Assembly: GCF_006151785.1 (NCBI RefSeq)
Contig: NZ_VDDD01000002.1
Span: forward strand, 1-64,000
Direction of reading: 5' to 3'
Origin: Paracoccus marcusii
GTDB taxonomy: Bacteria > Pseudomonadota > Alphaproteobacteria > Rhodobacterales > Rhodobacteraceae
DNA: 64,000 bases
Positions 35,862-60,467 of the stretch are shown here, in pieces. The notes under the pieces are model-generated. The model did no database searches, was not told where the DNA came from, and saw nothing but the letters and a program-made list of their open reading frames with translations. A program made the position numbers and the translations under genes. The stretch's first letter is position 1. Every line of letters begins with the position of its first letter.

Positions 35862-37043
35862 TCATCCATCGGCCAGCAGTTCAGCCGCGAGAGTTCGCAG
35901 CGCATGCGCCGCAACCAAGGGGACCACGCCGTTGCCACAGAGGCGAAGCCGGTCCACCCGGTGGGCCAACCCATCAGTGCCTCGACGAACAGCGGGTTCA
36001 AGGTCCGGCGCGGCTCGGAGGTATCGCTCCCAGCCATCGGCGTCACCAGGACCTGGCGGCCAAGCAGGCCGTTCACCGGCCTGTTCGCGAGTGTCGTCGC
36101 CCCGTCCTTGTGATCCCGCGCCGTCGGCGTCATCCACAATCCCACCGCATGGGTCAGATCGGCCGTCTTGCGGTTGCCCGCGCTCGGCTTGCAGCCGTCG
36201 TTCGCCATCGGCGTCGGCCAGTCCCGCGCCATGCGGTCCAGACCCTTCTCGTCTCGTCGTTCGCCGCCCCGGCTGCGGAAACTGTCGGTCTGCGGCGTGG
36301 GCCACATCGCAGCCGTGGTCGCCAGGTTCATGCCGTGCTGGCCCGCTTTCTGCGACGGCGTCGGTATTGTCTGCCTGTTCTCGTTGGCGCTGGCCCTTGG
36401 CGTCGGCCAGAGCCGCAGCAGTTCCGTCCGGTTCCCGCCACTCGACCGGGTGCCAGAGCAGGCGCGCGGGGTCGGCCAGCTCGTCCCCTTCGCGGATGGC
36501 GAGGATGAAGAGCCGCTCGCGCTTGTGGGGCGCGCCGACTTCCGCCGCCGTGAAGAGGCCTGCCGCAAGGCGGTAGCCCATGCCGACCAGTCCTGCGGCG
36601 ACTTCGGGGAAGCCGAGGCGGAGATGATGGGCGACATTCTCGAGGAAGACGAAGGGCGGTTCGACCTCGCCGATGATGCGGGCGACATGCGGCCAGAGGT
36701 GGCGCGGGTCGTCCGTACCCCTGCGTTTGCCCGCGACGGAGAACGGCTGGCACGGATAGCCCGCAGTGACGATGTCCACCGCGCCGCGCCACGGGCGGCC
36801 GTCGAAAGTTGCAACATCGTCCCAGACAACAGCCTGATCCAGGGACGCGTCTTCCATCCGCGCCACGAGAGTGGCTGCGGCGAAGGTTTCCCGTTCGACA
36901 TGGCCCACAGTTCGATATCCGGGGATGGCGATGGTGAGCCCGAGGTCGATACCGCCCGCGCCGGAGCAGAGGGAGAGGCCGAACAGACATGCGTCTCCGG
37001 CTCCGGAAGCGTCTCCGGAGGAAGGTAGAGCCAGGTCATGCAT
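35862..37043 (-). CDS. Phage C5-cytosine DNA methyltransferase
   Basis: A 393-residue enzyme. Motif I is FGLSLCSGAGGIDLG, the catalytic PC lies at residues 97-98 in GYPCQPFSVAG, and ENV is at 135-137. An RERLF motif VIII follows, and motif X is near the end (LCGNGVVPLVAAHAL). The region between about residues 205 and 350 is a Gly/Asp/Arg-rich target-recognition stretch. It probably protects phage DNA from host restriction. It starts one base after the stop of the upstream methyltransferase. A longer overlapping frame is a shadow. Confidence 0.88.
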   Translation of the reverse strand: MHDLALPSSGDASGAGDACLFGLSLCSGAGGIDLGLTIAIPGYRTVGHVERETFAAATLVARMEDASLDQAVVWDDVATFDGRPWRGAVDIVTAGYPCQPFSVAGKRRGTDDPRHLWPHVARIIGEVEPPFVFLENVAHHLRLGFPEVAAGLVGMGYRLAAGLFTAAEVGAPHKRERLFILAIREGDELADPARLLWHPVEWREPDGTAAALADAKGQRQREQADNTDAVAESGPARHEPGDHGCDVAHAADRQFPQPGRRTTRREGSGPHGAGLADADGERRLQAERGQPQDGRSDPCGGIVDDADGAGSQGRGDDTREQAGERPAWPPGPGDADGWERYLRAAPDLEPAVRRGTDGLAHRVDRLRLCGNGVVPLVAAHALRTLAAELLADG

Positions 37044-52412: not shown

Positions 52413-52616
52413 ATGAAACGCCCCAATCCGCTACCTCCCGACCAGATGACCGCCGCCGAACGCCGCACCGAGCTGTGCGGCCTGCTGGCGCTCGGGCTGG
52501 TTCGGTTGCGGATGCGGGATGGGGGCGAAGTATCTGACGATACTGGAGGACGTTGCCTACACTATCCGCCCGACCAATGCCGTCATGCAACTCCAACTCG
52601 CCGGAGAAATGCATGA
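52413..52616 (+). CDS. Small conserved protein of the recombinase cassette
   Basis: A 67-residue protein (MKRPNPLPPDQMTAAERRTE, then LLALGLVRLRMRD). It overlaps the next gene by ATGA. Small proteins of this kind precede DUF2924 and serine-recombinase genes in alphaproteobacterial elements. Its helical, charged body suggests binding to DNA or to the recombinase; the function is unknown. Confidence 0.75.
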   Translation: MKRPNPLPPDQMTAAERRTELCGLLALGLVRLRMRDGGEVSDDTGGRCLHYPPDQCRHATPTRRRNA

Positions 52617-53068
52617 ACAAGCCCGATCCCATCCCCGCGCGCCTCGCCGCGCTCAAGACCACGCCGACGCCTGACCTGAAGCAACAGTGGCGCGACCTGT
52701 TCGACAGCGAGCCGCCGCCGTTCAATCGCCGCTACCTCGAATCCCGGCTGGCGTACCGCATCCAGGAACTTGCCTATGGCGGGCTGAAGCCGGAGACGAT
52801 CCGGCGCCTTGAGCGGTTGGGCGAGGAACTGGACGGCGGCGACAGCAAGAAGCGCGGCATCCGCGCCGATCGCAAACGCCCGATCACCGGCACGCGGCTG
52901 CTGCGCGAATGGCAGGGCGTCGAGCAGATCGTCACCGTCACCGCCGATGGCTTCGAGTGGCAGGGGCGACCCTACAAGTCGCTGTCGGCTATTGCGCGCG
53001 CCATCACCGGCACCCGCTGGAACGGATGGACCTTCTTCGGCCTCAAGAACCACAGGGGGCGGACATGA
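52613..53068 (+). CDS. DUF2924 protein
   Basis: A 151-residue basic protein, with the DUF2924 marks FDSEPPPFNRRYLESRLAYR and then a beta-rich end (VTVTADGFEWQGRPYKSLSA, ITGTRWNGWTFFGL). The family is closely tied to large serine recombinases in phages and may help them on DNA. It is coupled at both ends by 4-bp overlaps. Confidence 0.9.
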   Translation: MNKPDPIPARLAALKTTPTPDLKQQWRDLFDSEPPPFNRRYLESRLAYRIQELAYGGLKPETIRRLERLGEELDGGDSKKRGIRADRKRPITGTRLLREWQGVEQIVTVTADGFEWQGRPYKSLSAIARAITGTRWNGWTFFGLKNHRGRT

Positions 53069-54390
53069 CCAAGCCCCCCGAAAAATCGAAGGTTGTCCGC
53101 AAGCTGCGGTGTGCCGTCTATACCCGGAAATCCTCCGAGGATGGGCTGGAGCAGGAGTTCAACAGCCTCCACGCCCAGCGTGAGGCCTGTGAGGCTTACA
53201 TCGCCAGTCAGCGATCCGAAGGCTGGGTGCTGGTCCGCGACCAGTATGACGACGGCGGCATCTCGGGCGGCACGCTGGAGCGCCCCGGACTGAAGCGGCT
53301 GCTGGAGGACATCGAGGACGGGCTGGTCGATGTGGTCGTGGTCTACAAGATCGACCGCCTCAGCCGCTCGCTGGCGGATTTCGCCAAGCTGGTGGAGGTG
53401 TTCGACCGGAACGGCGTAACCTTCGTGTCGGTCACGCAAAGCTTCAACACGACCACCTCGATGGGGCGGCTGACGCTGAACATCCTGCTGTCGTTCGCCC
53501 AGTTCGAGCGCGAAGTGACGGCTGAACGCATCCGCGACAAGGTCGCGGCCTCTCGGCGCAAGGGCATGTGGATGGGCGGCGTGCCGCCCTTCGGCTACCG
53601 CGTCGAGAACCGGAAGCTGATGGTCGACGAGGAAAGCGCCACGCATGTGCGCTGGATCTTCGCTCGCTTCCTCGAGATCGGGTCCTGCACTGAACTGGCG
53701 CGTGACGTCGGCGCGCGCGGCCTCCGGACGCCGCGCGGCAACCGGATCGACAAGAAATACATCTACCGGATGCTCAGCAACCGCGCCTACATCGGCGAGG
53801 CGGTCCACAAGGGCGACAGCTACCCCGGCGAGCACGACGCGATCATCGACCGCGAGATGTGGGACCGTGTCCATGCGATCCTGCAGGAGAGCCCGCGCAA
53901 GCGTGCCGCGCGCACCCGTGCCGACACGCCCGCGCTGCTGAAGGGGCTGCTGTTCGGCCCCGATGGCGCGGCGTTCTCGCCGACGCATACGCGCAAGGGC
54001 GACAGGCTCTACCGCTACTACGTCAGCCAGACAGTGCTGAAGCATGGTGCCGGGTCATGCCCGGTGGGCCGCGTGCCCGCGGGCGAGATCGAGGCCGCCG
54101 TCATCGATCAACTCCGCGCCGTGTTCCGCCAGCCCGAAATCGTAGTGGGCACTTGGAAAGCGGCTCGGGCGCAGGACGAGGAGATCACCGAGGCCGACGC
54201 ACGGGCAGCGCTTCAGCAGCTCGACCCGCTGTGGGACGAATTGTTCCCCGCCGAGCAGGCCCGCATCGTGGCGCTGCTGGTCGAGCGGGTGGACATCGGC
54301 ACGGATGGGCTCAACGTCCGGCTCCGGATCGATGGCCTTAGCGACCTCGCGCGCGAAATGCTGGCCAGCGGTATCGGAGAAGCTGCATGA
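53065..54390 (+). CDS. Large serine recombinase (phage integrase)
   Basis: A 441-residue resolvase-invertase family protein. The catalytic Ser is at residue 23 in AVYTRKSSEDG, followed by DDGGISGGTLERPGLKRLL, KIDRLSRSL and MGRLTLNILLSFAQFERE. A recombinase domain (GVPPFGYRVENRKLMVDEES) and a C-terminal helical part come next. The family's zinc-ribbon cysteines are sparse. It would carry out integration and, with a helper, excision. Start at 53065 by the ATGA overlap; the longer frame is a shadow. Confidence 0.94.
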   Translation: MTKPPEKSKVVRKLRCAVYTRKSSEDGLEQEFNSLHAQREACEAYIASQRSEGWVLVRDQYDDGGISGGTLERPGLKRLLEDIEDGLVDVVVVYKIDRLSRSLADFAKLVEVFDRNGVTFVSVTQSFNTTTSMGRLTLNILLSFAQFEREVTAERIRDKVAASRRKGMWMGGVPPFGYRVENRKLMVDEESATHVRWIFARFLEIGSCTELARDVGARGLRTPRGNRIDKKYIYRMLSNRAYIGEAVHKGDSYPGEHDAIIDREMWDRVHAILQESPRKRAARTRADTPALLKGLLFGPDGAAFSPTHTRKGDRLYRYYVSQTVLKHGAGSCPVGRVPAGEIEAAVIDQLRAVFRQPEIVVGTWKAARAQDEEITEADARAALQQLDPLWDELFPAEQARIVALLVERVDIGTDGLNVRLRIDGLSDLAREMLASGIGEAA

Positions 54391-54770
54391 CCCGCGCGAC
54401 GTCGATCCCAGAGGCCGTGACGATCCACGTCCCGCTCCGCATCGTGAAGCGCGGCGGGCGGAAGGAGATGCAGCTGCCGGAAGGCGCCAGCCAGACGCGT
54501 CGGACGAATAGTGCGCTGGTCAAGGCGCTGGCGCGCGCGTTCCGTTGGAAGCGCATGCTGGAGTCGGGCGAGTTCATGTCAATCTCCGAACTGGCCGAGC
54601 GCGAGGGCATCGCCTTTACATACATGGCACGGGTCCTGCGCCTGACACTGCTCGCTCCCGACATCGTCGAGGCGATCGTGGATGGCACGCAGGGACAGGA
54701 AGTGACGTTGGCGTACGTTCTGGAACCACTCTCGATCATCTGGTCGGAACAGCGCGCTTACCTCCTGTAA
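54387..54770 (+). CDS. HTH protein at the end of the recombinase cassette
   Basis: A 127-residue protein. A basic N-terminus is followed by a helix-turn-helix (LVKALARAFRWKRMLESGE, then MSISELAEREGIAFTYMARV). It is coupled to the recombinase gene by ATGA. It could be the recombination directionality factor or a control protein of the cassette; the call rests on position. The candidate right attachment repeat covers its stop codon. Confidence 0.75.
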   Translation: MTRATSIPEAVTIHVPLRIVKRGGRKEMQLPEGASQTRRTNSALVKALARAFRWKRMLESGEFMSISELAEREGIAFTYMARVLRLTLLAPDIVEAIVDGTQGQEVTLAYVLEPLSIIWSEQRAYLL

Positions 54771-54777
54771 TCCCCCG
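54769..54777. repeat. Candidate right attachment repeat (AATCCCCCG)
   Basis: The same 9-bp word as at 10796-10804, here overlapping the last codon of the HTH gene. Everything to its right belongs to a different, less GC-rich island. It is a candidate attR core. Confidence 0.4.
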
Positions 54778-54929
54778 CTTTCTGCTTGTGCGAGCGCAGC
54801 TAGCTCCCGTACGGTGAAGCTGAAAATGAGGTGGACGTTGGGATTGCACCGTCACAGGACGAGGCGCTATTGGGACGAATCTGGCTCCCTTGTATTTTGT
54901 TCAATTCAACCTTCTAAGGAGCGGTTTCC

Positions 54930-56294
54930 ATGATTCCAGCCGACAAGAAGAGGGCGGACGCCAATCCAACCAAAGCATTCTTTGTTCGCATGATCACCCG
55001 AGATATCACGCTGGAAGACTGCATTTTCGACTTAGTAGACAACAGTATCGACGGGGCCTGGGAACTAGCAGGCGGTCATCCGCTAAGCCTAGATGATAAA
55101 ACGGATCTCTCCGCCTACAAGATCAGCATCAAGATCGAGGCGGACCGCTTCGAAATCTCGGACAACTGCGGAGGCATCACACTGGATGACGCAGTCGACT
55201 ATGCCTTTACTTTTGGGCGTAAGGACGATGCCGAGACCGAGAACTTTAGTATTGGAGTTTACGGCATTGGTATGAAGAGAGCGGTTTTCAAGCTCGGCAC
55301 AGAGATCGACATCCGGAGCACGTACGAGGACAACGGCAATCTTGCATCCTTTCGGGTACCAATAAACGTTGAGAATTGGCTAGCTTCGGGCGACGAAAAT
55401 TGGGACTTCGACATTGAGGAAGCCGACAATTTGGACCAAAAAGGAGTTCGAATAACCGTCTCTGAGCTCACTGAAGCCGCAAAGAGGTCATTCGAAAGCC
55501 CCAGGTTCATCCGAAACCTGAGGCGGGCGATAGCTCGTGACTATGCGCTCCATTTGCACCGCGGGCTCGTAATTGAGGTTCAAGGCACGCCGATCACTGG
55601 ATGGACAATAGAGCTGCGGCAAGGTGGAGAGTTCAGCCCTATGCGGGCTCAGTTCGAAGAAGTGATGGACGGGGAGAAGGTTTTCGTCGAACTCTTGGCC
55701 GGCATGGCCGCTCCACCGCCGAACGATAGCGAGCCCAGCGATGACTTCGATGAAGGACAAAATACCTCCGGGTGGTATGTGATCTGTAATGGACGGATCG
55801 TCTTGGCCGCTGACAAGACGACATTAACAGGTTGGGGAACCGAGGGCTGGCCTCAATGGCACCCGCAGTATGCAGGGTTCATGGGGATAATAATATTTTC
55901 GTCTCGACGCGCTGACCTCCTGCCTTTGACGACGACAAAGCGCAGTGTCGACGAAACGTCAGCCATCTACAGGCAGTTTCGTCCAAAGATGCGTGAGACG
56001 ACAAAGGAATGGATTTCCTACACGAATACACGGAAGCAGATTAGGGAAGAGGCAGTTCAGCGAGAGGAAGCCGCCAAGGCCGTTCCCATATTCGAAGTCG
56101 CCATCCGGCAGGAGGTTGAGCTTCCAAAGATCGCACAGAAACCGAAGATCCCCGAAGCAAATGTGCTGTACACCGTCCCGAGGCCACGACTGAGGAGTCT
56201 CGCTTCGGCATTTGGCAATATCAACATGGCCTACAAAGATGTTGGCTTGCGTTCGTTCGAGTATGCCTTCAACGATCTTGTGGGCGACGAGTGA
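54930..56294 (+). CDS. GHKL (Hsp90/MutL/MORC-like) ATPase, defence candidate
   Basis: A 454-residue protein with an N-terminal GHKL ATPase domain. The N box is DCIFDLVDNSID (residues 30-41), the G1 box ISDNCGGIT (76-84), and the G2 box GVYGIGMKRA (109-118). The C-terminal half is helical and ends in a coiled-coil-like stretch. Such ATPases occur with restriction-modification genes, as in MORC-related systems. AAGGAG precedes the start. The codons are clearly less GC-rich than the surroundings, a sign of recent transfer. It is coupled to the following gene by TGATG. Confidence 0.85.
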   Translation: MIPADKKRADANPTKAFFVRMITRDITLEDCIFDLVDNSIDGAWELAGGHPLSLDDKTDLSAYKISIKIEADRFEISDNCGGITLDDAVDYAFTFGRKDDAETENFSIGVYGIGMKRAVFKLGTEIDIRSTYEDNGNLASFRVPINVENWLASGDENWDFDIEEADNLDQKGVRITVSELTEAAKRSFESPRFIRNLRRAIARDYALHLHRGLVIEVQGTPITGWTIELRQGGEFSPMRAQFEEVMDGEKVFVELLAGMAAPPPNDSEPSDDFDEGQNTSGWYVICNGRIVLAADKTTLTGWGTEGWPQWHPQYAGFMGIIIFSSRRADLLPLTTTKRSVDETSAIYRQFRPKMRETTKEWISYTNTRKQIREEAVQREEAAKAVPIFEVAIRQEVELPKIAQKPKIPEANVLYTVPRPRLRSLASAFGNINMAYKDVGLRSFEYAFNDLVGDE

Positions 56295-57244
56295 TGGCTT
56301 CTTTCGATTCAATCAACTATAGCATTCGACCAAGCAAAAGCGTTCAAAGAGGAATAGTCTTCGAGGGGTTGCGTCGGATTGCAAACAAAATTGACCTCGA
56401 TAACGCCGTATATATCGGCTTCGGTTCAATTTGGTTCACTGACTTTGTTCAGGCGCACAAAATCCTACATATCGATGACATGGTGTCGATCGAAGCAAAT
56501 GATATTGGGTTTCGTCGCGCGACGTTTAACAAGGAATATCGAACGATCTCTGTTATGGAGGGGCGTGCAAGTGCTCGGCTTCCCGATGTGCTAGCAATCG
56601 ATGGATACAATGCTCGTCCTTGGGTCGTCTGGCTAGATTACGACTGCGCACTAAACGAGGAGATCGTCGAGGACATGCAATGGGTGCTCGCGAATGCTCC
56701 GCCAAGCAGCGTAGTCTTGTTCACCTTCAGTGCCAATGCGACCCAAACCGCGTATGGCAAGCCGCGAAACAGGCCAGATCGCGTAAGAGCGCTTCTGGGC
56801 GATGTTGTTCCCGATGAGCTTTCCAAAGATGCCTGCGAGAAGGAGACGCTGCCTACTACGCTTGCAGGCTTGGTATCGGATTTCTTGAAGTCCGAGGCCG
56901 CCGATGCGGCGCGACCTGGTGGCTTCATAGATGCCTTTAGGCTGCCTTATCTCGACAGCGTTGCAATGGTTACAGTCGGCGGAATACTTCCGGCAAGGGA
57001 GGATACTGCTAGTGTTCGGGCAATGGTAGCGGACGCGTCCTGGGGTGGCATTGTTGACGAAATCATTGAAGCTCCTCCGATGACCCTTCGCGAAATTGCT
57101 ACGCTGCAAGCGGAACTACCGGCGGTGGCGGAGTTGACGCGCGCGCGTATCCAAGAACTCGGATTCGACTTACACGAGCGGCAAATCAGATCCTTTCAAA
57201 ATTACTACAAGTATCTGCCGAGTTTCGCGGAGATCGTTGCCTAG
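56294..57244 (+). CDS. Methyltransferase-fold partner of the GHKL ATPase
   Basis: A 316-residue protein of no family I can name for certain. It looks like a Rossmann methyltransferase: a glycine loop AVYIGFGSIWFTDF (residues 38-51), an acidic strand end SIEAND (65-70), and WLDYD (113-117) before a helix and a VLFTFSAN strand. RPSKSVQRGIVFEGLRRIA near the start looks like a conserved binding helix. The ATG shares a base with the ATPase stop (TGATG). The two probably form one system. Low GC, like its partner. Confidence 0.68.
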   Translation: MASFDSINYSIRPSKSVQRGIVFEGLRRIANKIDLDNAVYIGFGSIWFTDFVQAHKILHIDDMVSIEANDIGFRRATFNKEYRTISVMEGRASARLPDVLAIDGYNARPWVVWLDYDCALNEEIVEDMQWVLANAPPSSVVLFTFSANATQTAYGKPRNRPDRVRALLGDVVPDELSKDACEKETLPTTLAGLVSDFLKSEAADAARPGGFIDAFRLPYLDSVAMVTVGGILPAREDTASVRAMVADASWGGIVDEIIEAPPMTLREIATLQAELPAVAELTRARIQELGFDLHERQIRSFQNYYKYLPSFAEIVA

Positions 57245-57316
57245 GCTCGATGGGATGGCGTCGACCCAGAACAGTAGCAGCGGTCAGTTCCTCTCGAACC
57301 CATAGAGAAGACATTC

Positions 57317-57724
57317 ATGGCCGACCACGTGACGCCAGAACGCCGCTCGTACATAATGTCGAAGGTCGGCCAGAAGGACACAAAGCCTGAACTCGCCCTG
57401 CGCCGGGCCCTGCACCGGCTCGGATACCGGTTCAGGCTTCATCGTCGCGATCTGCCGGGCAGCCCCGACATCGTGTTCCCGTCGCGGAAGAAGGTCGTGT
57501 TCGTGCACGGCTGCTTCTGGCATGGCCACGGCTGCAGGTGGGGCCGACTGCCGAAGTCCAGGCCGGAGTACTGGAAGCCGAAGATTGAAACAAACAGGGA
57601 ACGTGATACGAGAGCCTTGACCGAGCTGAGGGAAGCTGGCTGGGAGCCGCTCATTGTCTGGCAATGCGAACTGAGGGACCTCGAAGAAGCCGTCGGCCGC
57701 GTCGAGGCCTTCCTGAGAGGCTAG
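57317..57724 (+). CDS. vsr: Vsr very-short-patch mismatch endonuclease
   Basis: A 135-residue nuclease that nicks beside T-G mismatches left by deamination of 5-methylcytosine. The family marks are the active-site Asp51 in LPGSPDIVFPSRK and the zinc/active-site cluster FVHGCFWHGHGC. It sits 60 bp before the cytosine methyltransferase it serves. GC content returns to near local average here. Confidence 0.94.
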   Translation: MADHVTPERRSYIMSKVGQKDTKPELALRRALHRLGYRFRLHRRDLPGSPDIVFPSRKKVVFVHGCFWHGHGCRWGRLPKSRPEYWKPKIETNRERDTRALTELREAGWEPLIVWQCELRDLEEAVGRVEAFLRG

Positions 57725-57784
57725 GTTTCGCTGGTCAATCCGGCACCACACCGATATGTTGAGTGAAAACGACAGGAGCAAGGC

Positions 57785-59098
57785 ATGGCAAGACCGATAG
57801 GAGTCGACCTGTTCGCAGGGGCCGGGGGCATGAGCCTCGGCTTTGAGCAAGCCGGCTTCGATGTGGTCGCGGCCGTCGAACTCGACCCTGTGCACGCTGC
57901 GGTGCACAAGTACAACTTCCCGCGGTGCGCCGTTCTCCCACGATCTGTCACGGACGTCTCAGGCGACGATATCAGGGCGGCAGCCGGGATCGGCAACCGT
58001 CGTGTGGATGTCGTGTTCGGTGGCGCTCCGTGCCAAGGCTTCTCGCTGATTGGCCAGCGGGCCTTGGACGATCCCAGGAACGGACTCGTCAAGGATTTTG
58101 TGCGCATCGTCAGAGAACTGGATGCCGCCTATTTCGTCTTCGAGAACGTGAAGGGGCTAACGGTCGGAAAGCACCGGAAATTCCTGTTCGAACTGATCGA
58201 AGAGTTCGAGGCTGCCGGTTACGAGGTGCAGAAGGATTGGCGTGTGCTGAATGCGGCCGACTATGGCGTGCCGCAGGATCGCCAGAGGTTGATCCTTATG
58301 GGCGCCAAGAGAGGCGAAGAGGTGCCGACCTACCCGACGACGATTGCTGAGAGACCGACGTGCCAAGCCGCGCTCGCCGATTTGCCCGACGCCGAATTCT
58401 TCGAGGAGCTTAGATCGTCGGATTCCGTAGAGACGTCTGCCTTCGGGAATCCGAGCAAATACGCCGAGCCGCTGCGAGGGATTGGAAACGATGCTTGGGC
58501 CTTCGGGCACCCTAGAAAATGGGATCCGAGCCTGTTCACTTCGAGCGCCCGCACCGAGCATACCGAGATCTCGCGGCGCCGTTTTCGAGAAACCGATCAG
58601 GGACGGGTCGAGCCGATTTCCCGTTTCTTCAAGCTCCCGGCGGACGGCGTGTCCAATACTCTCCGAGCTGGGACCGACTCGGCACGAGGCGCGTTCACCA
58701 GTCCGAGACCGATCCACTTTGCCTACGCGCGCTGCGTAACAGTCCGCGAGATGGCGCGTCTCCACGGCTTCCCCGACTGGTTTCGTTTCAATGCCACCAA
58801 GTGGCATGGGGCCCGCCAGATCGGTAACGCCGTGCCGCCGCCACTTGCACGCGCCGTCGCGGCAGCCGTCATGCGAGCCCTAGGCGTCGAACCCACTCGC
58901 CCGACAGAGGCAATCGCCCTCGGCGACGAGCGGCTCCTGACCATGGGCAACACCGAGGCGGCTGCGCACTTCCAGGTCGAGAATCCAATAGGTCGACGCG
59001 ACAAGAAGAGTGGCGCAAAGAAGCGAAAGCAGGAAGAAATCGAGGCCTCATATGCCTTTAACGGGCGGCCTGAGTTCGTAGATGGCGTCGCTGGCTAG
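57785..59098 (+). CDS. C5-cytosine DNA methyltransferase of a type II system
   Basis: A 437-residue enzyme. Motif I is VDLFAGAGGMSLGF (residues 7-20), and the catalytic PC is residues 82-83 in GGAPCQGFS. ENV is at 120-122, motif VIII is PQDRQRLI, and motif X is IGNAVPPPLA. The target-recognition domain lies between about 190 and 300. A basic tail (KKSGAKKRKQEE) follows. It protects the cell's sites from the convergent nuclease gene, whose end overlaps its own by 51 bp. The recognition sequence cannot be read from the protein. Confidence 0.94.
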   Translation: MARPIGVDLFAGAGGMSLGFEQAGFDVVAAVELDPVHAAVHKYNFPRCAVLPRSVTDVSGDDIRAAAGIGNRRVDVVFGGAPCQGFSLIGQRALDDPRNGLVKDFVRIVRELDAAYFVFENVKGLTVGKHRKFLFELIEEFEAAGYEVQKDWRVLNAADYGVPQDRQRLILMGAKRGEEVPTYPTTIAERPTCQAALADLPDAEFFEELRSSDSVETSAFGNPSKYAEPLRGIGNDAWAFGHPRKWDPSLFTSSARTEHTEISRRRFRETDQGRVEPISRFFKLPADGVSNTLRAGTDSARGAFTSPRPIHFAYARCVTVREMARLHGFPDWFRFNATKWHGARQIGNAVPPPLARAVAAAVMRALGVEPTRPTEAIALGDERLLTMGNTEAAAHFQVENPIGRRDKKSGAKKRKQEEIEASYAFNGRPEFVDGVAG

Positions 59099-59950
59099 CG
59101 TCAGCTCGTCGAGCGCCTGTGCGTCGGCTCTCCTGACGGCCTCGAATTCCGTAAGATAGATCCCGACGCCTCTGACAGTTCGGAGGCCGATCGGGATTAC
59201 CGTATCGACTTCCGCTTCCGCGAAAGCGGCCTGAACCTGGTTGATGATCTGGCTGGGAATCAATGGATCCTTGGCCTGCTTCGCTTCACAGGTGACCAGC
59301 ACAGAATCAGGATTTTTGGGGTCGCCGGCCTTCCCGAGAAACAAAGCATCGATCTCAGTCGAGCGGAGCTTGATGCCCATCTGCAGGTGCGTCAGCTCGA
59401 GGAGCGGAAACGCTGGGGCGACTGCGAAGTGCGTCTCCACCACCCGGAGATTGATGGCCGTCTGGATAAGCCAGGTTTCATCGGATCGACCGAGCGACTT
59501 TGTGGCCAGCGGCAGGCTGATCGATTGCACGAGGAAACGCCGTGCATCCTCTCGAACCTTGAAAGCGTCTGGAAAGGGCTCGGTATGACCAGGTCGGTAG
59601 GGGATGAACTCGAAGCACTCCCCGTCGCCCGTACGCTGGATGCCGGTGAACCGTCGTGCTGCAACCGAGGCAGGCCAGTTCTTCGAAGCGTTCGCTCCTC
59701 GGAGCAGATCCTTCATGAAATTGGCTGGGTTCCGGTCGCTCAGAGTCGAGCCGTATAGCTTGTTGCATTCGCGTATCGCCTGAGCCACGTCGTCGAGGCT
59801 CATGAGCCTCTTGTCGAGCGCGCCGTTCGTCGCGTCCCAGTGCTTTTCGAACAAGTGCTCGATCACCTGCGTCTTCTGCGATTTCGCCACTTTGTCCGAT
59901 CCGGTATGCCGATGATTAGGCAATAGTATTTCGAACAAATGCCGAGGCAC
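59048..59950 (-). CDS. PD-(D/E)XK nuclease, probable restriction endonuclease
   Basis: A 300-residue protein with the nuclease core STEIDALFLGK and VLVTCEAKQAKD, giving likely catalytic E199, D201, E222 and K224. The N-terminal half (VIEHLFEKHWDATNGALDKR) is probably the DNA-recognition part. It converges on the cytosine methyltransferase and shares 51 bp of coding sequence with it. The start is a GTG at 59950 without a clear ribosome site; a GTG at 59890 is an alternative. Confidence 0.72.
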   Translation of the reverse strand: MPRHLFEILLPNHRHTGSDKVAKSQKTQVIEHLFEKHWDATNGALDKRLMSLDDVAQAIRECNKLYGSTLSDRNPANFMKDLLRGANASKNWPASVAARRFTGIQRTGDGECFEFIPYRPGHTEPFPDAFKVREDARRFLVQSISLPLATKSLGRSDETWLIQTAINLRVVETHFAVAPAFPLLELTHLQMGIKLRSTEIDALFLGKAGDPKNPDSVLVTCEAKQAKDPLIPSQIINQVQAAFAEAEVDTVIPIGLRTVRGVGIYLTEFEAVRRADAQALDELTLASDAIYELRPPVKGI

Positions 59951-60279
59951 AAGAGCGCGTCACGTCATCGAACGAGCAGTTTGAGGCTGGAGACTCGCAG
60001 GCGGGTGAACCGCCGACCGGAGGCGGAAGATAGAGTTCGTAGATCGGTCACCAGACCACCGTCCGCGGATAGGTTCGATTTCTGTTCCGTCTCGCGGAAG
60101 CGACCGACTTCGAAGTGTTCAGGCAGGGAAAGCATTTTCCGTAAGGACTTTAAATGCTTACAGGCTCTACACCAAAACCGCGCAGTCGAGAGGTCCGGAG
60201 AATATCGGCCCTGAGAGACCGCTTCTGGGCCAACTGGTAGCAGGGGCAGTGCTTAGCCCCATCCGCATAACCATTCAGA
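59951..60279. other. Gene-free junction between defence island and chromosome
   Basis: About 330 bp without a plausible gene. It changes from island sequence to chromosomal sequence somewhere here, but I see no direct repeat of the tRNA end or other integration scar. Short AT-rich stretches near 60125-60175 could hold a promoter. Confidence 0.45.
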
Positions 60280-60309
60280 TAAAACGAGAAAATCCGGCCG
60301 CGGCCGGAT
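60280..60309 (-). terminator. Rho-independent terminator of the tRNA gene
   Basis: On the minus strand the perfect 18-bp palindrome ATCCGGCCGCGGCCGGAT (60292-60309) is followed by TTTTCTCGTTTT. It lies 26 bases after the tRNA CCA end. A GC-rich stem with a T-run is the standard terminator form. Confidence 0.78.
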
Positions 60310-60335
60310 CGGGAGAACGCTTTCGCGGGGGCAAG

Positions 60336-60425
60336 TGGCGGAGCGAGAGGGATTCGAACCCTCGAGACGGTCTCCCGCCTACACACTTTCCAGGCGTGCG
60401 CCTTCGACCACTCGGCCATCGCTCC
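60336..60425 (-). tRNA. tRNA-Ser(GGA)
   Basis: The acceptor stem pairs GGAGCGA with TCGCTCC, and a discriminator G and an encoded CCA follow. The anticodon loop CTGGAAA gives anticodon GGA. A long variable arm (GGCGGGAGACCGTC) marks a serine tRNA. The T-loop GGTTCGAATCC is intact. Its 3' end faces the defence island, an arrangement often seen where elements integrate, but no duplicated tRNA end was found. Confidence 0.95.
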
Positions 60426-60467
60426 GTGAGGCGGGTCTAGCCCGACGCACGGCGCGGTGCAAGGGGA

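Follow-up and report, generated by a model that had tools for sequence, protein, structure and literature searches.

In a stretch of 64,000 nucleotides from Paracoccus marcusii (contig NZ_VDDD01000002.1, positions 1 to 64,000; hereafter the window), we analyzed a block of five genes that opens with a GHKL ATPase (P0001) and a class I S-adenosylmethionine (SAM) methyltransferase-like protein of the Pfam family Methyltransf_35 (P0002), and continues with the mismatch endonuclease Vsr, a C5-cytosine DNA methyltransferase (Dcm) and a putative nuclease (P0005). With moderate confidence, we regard the first two genes as the constant core of an antiphage module that resembles restriction systems: Dcm would provide the self-mark, the ATPase would act as sensor and the Methyltransf_35 protein would be its obligate partner. 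What we observe is a conserved gene pairing with characteristic motifs and predicted folds, a linkage to Dcm in which partners are exchanged, and placement in prophages, in DISARM operons and among restriction genes. Given these genomic positions, we consider an antiphage function of the pair likely.

A conserved pair of ATPase and Methyltransf_35 genes

A search of 84,980 species genomes for relatives of the ATPase gave 445, of which the best 80 were kept, and viral contigs provided 77 loci. Using profiles built in this analysis, pairing was scored at 166 GHKL loci, and a Methyltransf_35 partner was located on the same strand within 100 bp at 153 of these. The remaining 13 comprise three loci with the partner within 300 bp, two interrupted or remnant copies (L009 and L043) and eight viral loci without partner. 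The two genes overlap by 4 or 1 bases at 96 of the 158 loci having any partner match. In the window, the TGATG coupling reported in a preliminary description of this DNA was recovered, with the ATPase stop overlapping the partner ATG at 56294 by one base (the gene finder placed the start at GTG 56291; the ATG was used instead). After removal of GHKL proteins at least 85% identical and omission of L009, the two genes stood next to each other in 101 of 110 non-redundant loci. The gene pairing that the preliminary description had asked to be checked across genomes is thus conserved, and a two-gene unit is supported. The reverse search, starting from PF20553 in genomes (matches in 5 of 398 and 5 of 385 genomes, two of them shared), found the ATPase directly upstream in seven of seven testable loci, the window included, with an eighth locus being cut by a contig end. 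Three plasmid or phage records found with P0002 added two adjacent ATPases and one interrupted case (L009). According to record titles, the pair is hosted by Alpha- and Gammaproteobacteria, Actinobacteria, Acidobacteria, Firmicutes, Bacteroidetes, a cyanobacterium, a planctomycete and one archaeal bin, the phylum of some of these records being presumed by us.

The ATPase scored above the cut-off for HATPase_c_3 in Pfam (E 3e-9) and matched phrog_20521 (1.5e-88). For its AlphaFold model (predicted local distance difference test, pLDDT, 93.8), the closest solved folds in VIA-align were MORC3, MORC4 and MORC2 (Z 23.8–22.4), followed by Hsp90 (22.2), SMCHD1 (21.7) and topoisomerase VI B (about 20), and the superposition on the MORC3/4/2 chains extended over 294–340 residues, covering both domains. 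The motif GhXhhpXXRhl, which unites MORCs (Iyer, Abhiman and Aravind 2008, PMC2292703), was present in 89 of 91 aligned homologues of 425–490 residues, P0001 among them (GWYVICNGRIV). Residues N38, D78, G82, G112 and G114 are invariant in this alignment, as is K337 in the TTTK of the S5-type second domain, where it presumably serves as the basic finger. P0001 thus combines a GHKL domain carrying the ATP-binding motifs, an S5-type domain and the MORC motif, three of the features that define prokaryotic MORCs; the fourth, a superfamily II helicase neighbour, which is seen in about 70% of cases and is not obligatory, is missing among the five genes. The window's genome holds no Z1 helicase either, other superfamily II types not having been searched genome-wide, and the preliminary description was right in calling this usual partner absent. 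Its suggested link to MORC-type ATPases of restriction systems is likewise borne out by structure, motif and neighbours, and we refer to P0001 as MORC-like, a predicted bacterial relative of the MORC chromatin proteins. Sequence searches of the PDB with P0001, P0002, P0005 and two alignments yielded weak or chance-level matches only, the best ones for one of the alignments being topoisomerase VI B (0.03) and MORC2 (0.22).

The second protein, unfamiliar to the author of the preliminary description, instead belongs to a catalogued family, PF20553 (3.5e-93; 312.8 bits against a gathering score of 27). Its AlphaFold model (pLDDT 94.1) is closest in fold to the tRNA (guanine26-N2) methyltransferase Trm1, with Z 16.3–14.8 over 208–222 residues in VIA-align, and other methyltransferase folds score from Z 13.8 downward. 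Since sequence identity to Trm1 is just 11–12% and Pfam assigns P0002 to PF20553 alone, this likeness is one of fold only. The term O-methyltransferase would accordingly be a label only for P0002, the closest predicted fold being that of a tRNA N2-guanine enzyme. Across 93 aligned Methyltransf_35 sequences, R13, K16, R20, Y41, G45, D51, W114, D116, M226 and E268 are invariant. Because the conserved sets comprise Y41-x-G43-x-G45, E68 (90 of 93), W114-x-D116 and the N-terminal R13/K16/R20, it is plausible that the protein is a functional SAM enzyme with a nucleic-acid substrate.

Several loci depart from the standard arrangement. At L043 (7989–9515), the reading frame of the GHKL gene continues into the final portion of a Methyltransf_35 gene, as after a deletion-fusion, and the locus probably represents a decayed pair. 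On the Sinorhizobium meliloti plasmid pSymA (L009, 1671–6816), GHKL and a partial Methyltransf_35 are about 3 kb apart with other open reading frames (ORFs) between them, which looks like an interrupted copy; downstream are a P0005 homologue and an ORF that is Dcm-like as judged by its first residues. Longer MORC-like GHKL proteins of 573–631 residues without partner occur near Dcm in L156, L159, L160, L163, L164, L165 and L167, so that Dcm is nearby in seven of the eight partnerless viral loci, the eighth being L158. Longer GHKL proteins were also found beside a normal pair in L033 and L044, where Dcm, the long GHKL, Vsr (in L044) and the pair lie side by side, an order resembling the MORC plus paraMORC1 neighbourhoods of PMC2292703. 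Pfam gave no meaningful match to the C-terminal extensions of the long GHKL proteins. The extension in L156 weakly matched PD-Lambda-5_A (5e-4), which, according to its discoverers, is a compacted form, found in prophages, of a system combining restriction with abortive infection (PMC9519451), and this may be a faint lead for the idea that Methyltransf_35 is an effector.

Linkage to DNA methyltransferases

To describe the neighbourhoods, Dcm, Vsr and DISARM genes were labelled from BLAST clusters, with family searches confirming examples only. Dcm was present in the flanks (up to 8 kb) of 84 of the 101 non-redundant pairs and within 1.2 kb of 77, compared to a chance expectation of 0.36% for the shorter distance, as derived from the PF00145 density in just those 88 of 150 genomes that had any match (200 matches in 334 Mb). 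The preliminary description had considered that the pair might be a two-gene antiphage module of its own. The conserved pairing stands, but the pair seldom occurs by itself, given the Dcm linkage and six non-redundant pairs that reside in class 1 DISARM operons, between drmMI-like and drmA-like genes and sometimes with one extra ORF. One of these six also carries a full-length Dcm and is hence counted among the 84. For L073, the operon was confirmed by PADLOC names, with both DrmA and DrmB present and the first gene scoring against the DrmA and DrmD models, and the NCBI annotation of a Microvirga plasmid (L010) shows the same drmMI-pair-drmA arrangement. For DISARM, both repression by methylation and the presence of auxiliary genes have been reported (PMC9142583).

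Twelve pairs had neither a Dcm of at least 200 residues nor a DISARM operon. Three of them (L014, L048 and L109) are accompanied by other, adenine-type DNA methyltransferases (N6_N4_Mtase plus MethyltransfD12 in L048), one (L050) by a 158-residue Dcm fragment, and two (L036 and L093) are truncated where their contigs end. The last six (L061, L087, L088, L091, L092 and L094) have usable flanks, and in their partly scanned neighbourhoods no DNA methyltransferase was recognised. Around these six and L048, we found SIR2 with HerA, Fic, PIN, NERD, SLFN/AlbA and SMC-like genes. In L092 (12715–15040), a SIR2-like gene lies beside a HerA-like gene, about 2.4 kb downstream of the pair; SIR2 plus HerA is a known defence-type combination.

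To follow the three proteins through evolution, we compared their distances across 75 loci. GHKL and partner co-vary with a Spearman rho of 0.71, a value reached by none of 500 permutations; rho is 0.18 for GHKL and Dcm (none of 500) and 0.11 for partner and Dcm (4 of 500). A tree of the joined GHKL and partner rows, made by a quick method with 53 of 98 inner branches starred, requires at least 34 context changes among 98 labelled loci. From the correlations and the tree, it follows that ATPase and partner evolve together, with the DNA methyltransferase being kept for a time and then exchanged.

These data bear on a reading in which the pair needs no further component to act against phages, merely shares cargo sites with restriction systems and is blind to their methylation. 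Such autonomy would be in line with the six of 101 pairs having no recognised DNA methyltransferase and lying among SIR2 with HerA, NERD, Fic, PIN and SMC-like ATPase genes, with the weak co-variation of GHKL and Dcm, and with the frequent changes in Dcm position and orientation. It is hard to reconcile with the proximity of Dcm to 77 of 101 pairs, and with the DISARM loci, L014, L048 and L109, which provide adenine-type methyltransferases in the place of Dcm. Moreover, the pair and Dcm sit without other added genes in the P2-like prophage sites examined and come first in a Pf phage record (see below), where a chance neighbour would be lost. We therefore consider a methylation-blind module rather unlikely.

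Vsr was near only 38 of the 101 pairs. Accordingly, the Vsr-Dcm-nuclease set to which the preliminary description had joined the pair is present in the window, but is not constant elsewhere, the Escherichia coli versions described below consisting of the pair plus Dcm. The low Vsr count is also decisive for a further reading, in which the ATPase would be a MutL-like repair factor acting with Vsr at deaminated 5-methylcytosine, and the partner would be regulatory. In its favour, PMC2292703 treats Vsr as the nuclease that cooperates with MutL during very short patch repair, and MORCs as MutL relatives, and Vsr adjoins the pair in the window. Its absence from the E. coli and Pf versions and the DrmMI-type methyltransferases of the DISARM loci do not fit, however, and we find a repair role highly improbable and, given Vsr at 38 of 101 pairs, rejected it as the main one.

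Prophage cargo sites and the Paracoccus locus

In its most compact form, the system is a triple of about 3.5 kb consisting of ATPase, partner and a convergent Dcm. Counted at a coverage of at least 80% of one version, two versions of this triple are found in 172 plus 45, that is 217, of 5426 complete E. coli genomes (about 4%). The places of the two triples add up with the 221 returned by a distant search, so that double counting of genomes seems not to have occurred. As the copies within each version are nearly identical, clonal sampling also contributes to the count. In P2-like prophages of two E. coli genomes, the pair is flanked by portal and replication genes, Dcm is convergent and a nuclease is missing, and the same P2-type site is occupied in five IMG/VR contigs, as read from the gene map with one contig checked by Pfam. 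This portal-replication site is a defence hotspot (PMC9122126, PMC9519451). The second version lies in a lambdoid-type prophage in the one genome examined, the type being read from neighbour genes. The record of the filamentous Pf phage PfAC20 begins with GHKL, Methyltransf_35 and Dcm, of which its authors listed just the cytosine methyltransferase, assigning it to an incomplete system (PMC11878078). On the same strand behind these three genes, PfAC20 encodes a 105-residue protein of unassigned function (L008, 3718–4035).

The triples are informative as to whether the pair might be a second modification machine, in which the ATPase would load Methyltransf_35 on DNA and the extra mark would protect the element, with separate nucleases carrying out restriction. 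Such a role would suit the methyltransferase motifs and invariant basic residues that Methyltransf_35 retains, as well as the nucleases seen at some loci (HNH_2, AspBHI-like and PD-(D/E)XK-like). Against this, a dedicated DNA methyltransferase is already there, and the E. coli and Pf triples contain no recognisable nuclease that would make protection necessary. We regard a second modification role as quite improbable.

In the Paracoccus window, all five ORFs of the preliminary description were found (Table 1). As it also stated, the pair is lower in G+C (0.49–0.56) than the Vsr-Dcm region (0.58–0.65) and positions 53000–54500 (0.64–0.68). Vsr matched Pfam Vsr (8e-31) and TIGR00632 (159 bits against a cut-off of 97.85), and Dcm matched DNA_methylase (PF00145, 2.5e-65). 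In Dcm, P82-C83, E120-N121-V122, R166 and R168, which we take to be the catalytic residues, are invariant across the aligned sequences, and the window thus holds a cytosine methyltransferase with intact motifs, as expected of a type II restriction-modification system. The P0005 gene is convergent with the Dcm gene and overlaps it. Pfam, NCBIfam, PADLOC and PHROG returned no match for its product; E199-I-D201 and E222-A-K224, invariant among six aligned sequences including P0005, follow the E-D-ExK pattern presumably typical of PD-(D/E)XK nucleases. Of note, the phage part of the window contains a second, partial PF00145 match (7e-33; 36462–36977, minus strand).

Table 1. Genes and other features at the Paracoccus marcusii locus (window coordinates)
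Feature	Coordinates	Strand	Remarks
MORC-like GHKL ATPase (P0001), gene 1 of the pair	54930–56294	+	454 aa; HATPase_c_3
Methyltransf_35 protein (P0002), class I SAM methyltransferase-like	56294–57244	+	316 aa from ATG; PF20553
Vsr mismatch endonuclease	57317–57724	+	TIGR00632; Pfam Vsr
C5-cytosine DNA methyltransferase, Dcm-type	57785–59098	+	PF00145; alignment of eight sequences
Putative PD-(D/E)XK nuclease (P0005), candidate restriction enzyme	59048–59950	-	E-D-ExK pattern
Large serine recombinase, adjoining prophage	52909–54390	+	Resolvase, Recombinase and Zn_ribbon_recom
tRNA-Ser(GGA), likely edge or target of element	60336–60425	-	ARAGORN; end of L096 homology

The five-gene block recurs behind the same serine recombinase in two IMG/VR contigs (L006 and L007), and Roseovarius aestuariivivens (L016) also has the block, with 83% DNA identity over 52545–60426, as seen in the gene map and DNA homology. 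Due to this recurrence, the block is not a chance assembly. The recombinase is flanked by ORFs of 171 and 127 residues (52553–54770), an arrangement that L006 also shows next to the five genes, as does L007 with a 151-residue version of the first ORF. DNA homology with the IMG/VR contig L096 stops at 60343, eight bases into the 3' end of the tRNA-Ser, and homology with R. aestuariivivens spans the entire tRNA. Because homology reaches into the tRNA, the block is probably cargo, carried at the margin of an element that has inserted at tRNA-Ser. The preliminary description had placed an island between the phage edge and the tRNA; the five genes are indeed located there, but the homology running into the tRNA argues against a position outside the element. 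The window yielded no further copy of the tRNA-Ser end that could represent an attachment site.

Relation to known systems and proposed mechanism

The pair is not an already named PADLOC system, an outcome that the preliminary description had left open: the window pair, two E. coli pairs and one pair from a DISARM operon had no model match in PADLOC-DB 2.0.0. Just weak matches of 1e-3 to 5e-4 were obtained, for the PfAC20 ATPase and the L156 GHKL, and we ruled out that the pair is covered there. The Mza systems are of the MutL-Z1-AIPR type, with a Z1 helicase and an MzaB-type ATPase; given the lack of Z1 in the genome and of any PADLOC match for P0001 up to E 1, membership was rejected, the PfAC20 homologue being the one that weakly matches MzaB (1e-3). 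P0001 and P0002 had no match to HEF_HK or Response_reg_2 up to E 1, although those systems likewise join a HATPase_c_3 ATPase to a fixed partner beside a C5 methylase and Vsr, the partner being response-regulator-like and the ATPase carrying an HEF_HK C-terminus (PMC8011034). VcSduA, a type I Shedu protein (paraMORC3, PMC12137116), likewise has a GHKL ATPase, within an experimentally shown antiphage protein, but carries its own C-terminal DUF4263 nuclease, for which P0001 has no Pfam match up to E 1. We therefore rejected membership in the HEF_HK and Shedu/paraMORC3 systems as well. The five window proteins lack DrmA and DrmB matches, so that we did not class the block as DISARM (the remaining window ORFs were not scanned).

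Closest to the pair are the prokaryotic MORC and paraMORC systems, which share the GHKL and S5 domains with GhXhhpXXRhl as well as C5 methylase and Vsr neighbours (PMC2292703). In a minority of their neighbourhoods, methylases or nucleases occur and the helicase is lacking, as Z1 is in the window; the fixed Methyltransf_35 partner, however, goes unmentioned in the text of PMC2292703 consulted. That MORC or paraMORC ATPases occur beside methylases, Vsr and nucleases is thus already published (PMC2292703, PMC8011034). In titles and the openings of abstracts, the pair was unnamed, and the open-access texts searched, which came without supplements, contained no mention of PF20553 or Methyltransf_35 (Table S5B of PMC9122126, with 169 P2-hotspot systems, may list the triple). 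Two further papers that looked relevant (PMC8620254, PMC9716671) do not, in the parts seen, concern the pair. With no naming publication seen and no PADLOC-DB 2.0.0 model, the Methyltransf_35 partner and the triple appear to be a new variant of a known theme.

Regarding the mechanism, we propose that the host's own DNA would be marked by the DNA methyltransferase next to the pair, which is Dcm in most cases and the adenine methyltransferase DrmMI in DISARM. The MORC-like GHKL and S5 ATPase would bind ATP, dimerise and clamp or loop DNA, with the methyl mark gating its activity; for this gating, we see the case as evenly balanced. The ATPase might recruit or license Methyltransf_35, a SAM methyltransferase with a predicted Trm1-like fold, as possible effector on nucleic acid, an assignment that is tentative at best. 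Vsr would repair deamination at 5-methylcytosine, and a nuclease such as P0005 would be an optional extra restriction arm. In its most far-reaching form, the model would amount to non-nucleolytic restriction, in which a MORC clamp senses DNA without the cell's methyl mark and activates Trm1-like methylation of phage DNA or of host or phage tRNA or other RNA, thereby halting infection, a scenario we think unlikely.

A number of observations weigh against the restriction-like module. As to the proteins, Hsp90 is nearly level with MORC as a fold match of P0001 (Z 22.2 vs 23.8 in VIA-align), and Foldseek alone places TRAP1/Hsp90 on top. Because 88 of 91 sequences have Asp, and only three Glu, at the position of the catalytic Glu in the N-box of the GHKL domain, ATP turnover may be weak. 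Trm1 ranks just modestly above other methyltransferases for P0002, and a shared fold of predicted models does not reveal the substrate. With respect to pairing, the observed rate holds for close relatives, namely the best 80 of 445, and the eight viral loci without partner mostly contain longer GHKL proteins, that of L158 being cut by a contig end. Concerning methylation, the six pairs lacking a recognised DNA methyltransferase imply that gating in cis may not apply to every pair. On the tree, Dcm contexts also show clustering (34 changes vs 57.7 with shuffled labels), and the co-variation of GHKL and Dcm, weak though it is, beats all 500 permutations. Finally, copies of each E. coli version are at least 99% identical, leaving far fewer independent cases than 217, and no nuclease, by which a three-gene version might stop a phage, is constant across loci.

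A function of prokaryotic MORCs in restriction systems was predicted in 2008 (PMC2292703), and bacterial MORCs were still called poorly understood in 2021 (PMC8011034). Our data add an obligate partner to such an ATPase, with its substrate unassigned, and a compact triple of about 3.5 kb, carried by roughly 4% of complete E. coli genomes and, in two examined, located exactly at the P2 defence hotspot, which is small enough for a test by one cloning experiment. Should the triple prove protective, PADLOC-type tools would need a new model, and bacterial relatives of the eukaryotic MORC silencing factors would be tied to DNA-methylation sensing. If the non-nucleolytic scenario were true, restriction would be achieved through methylation rather than cleavage.

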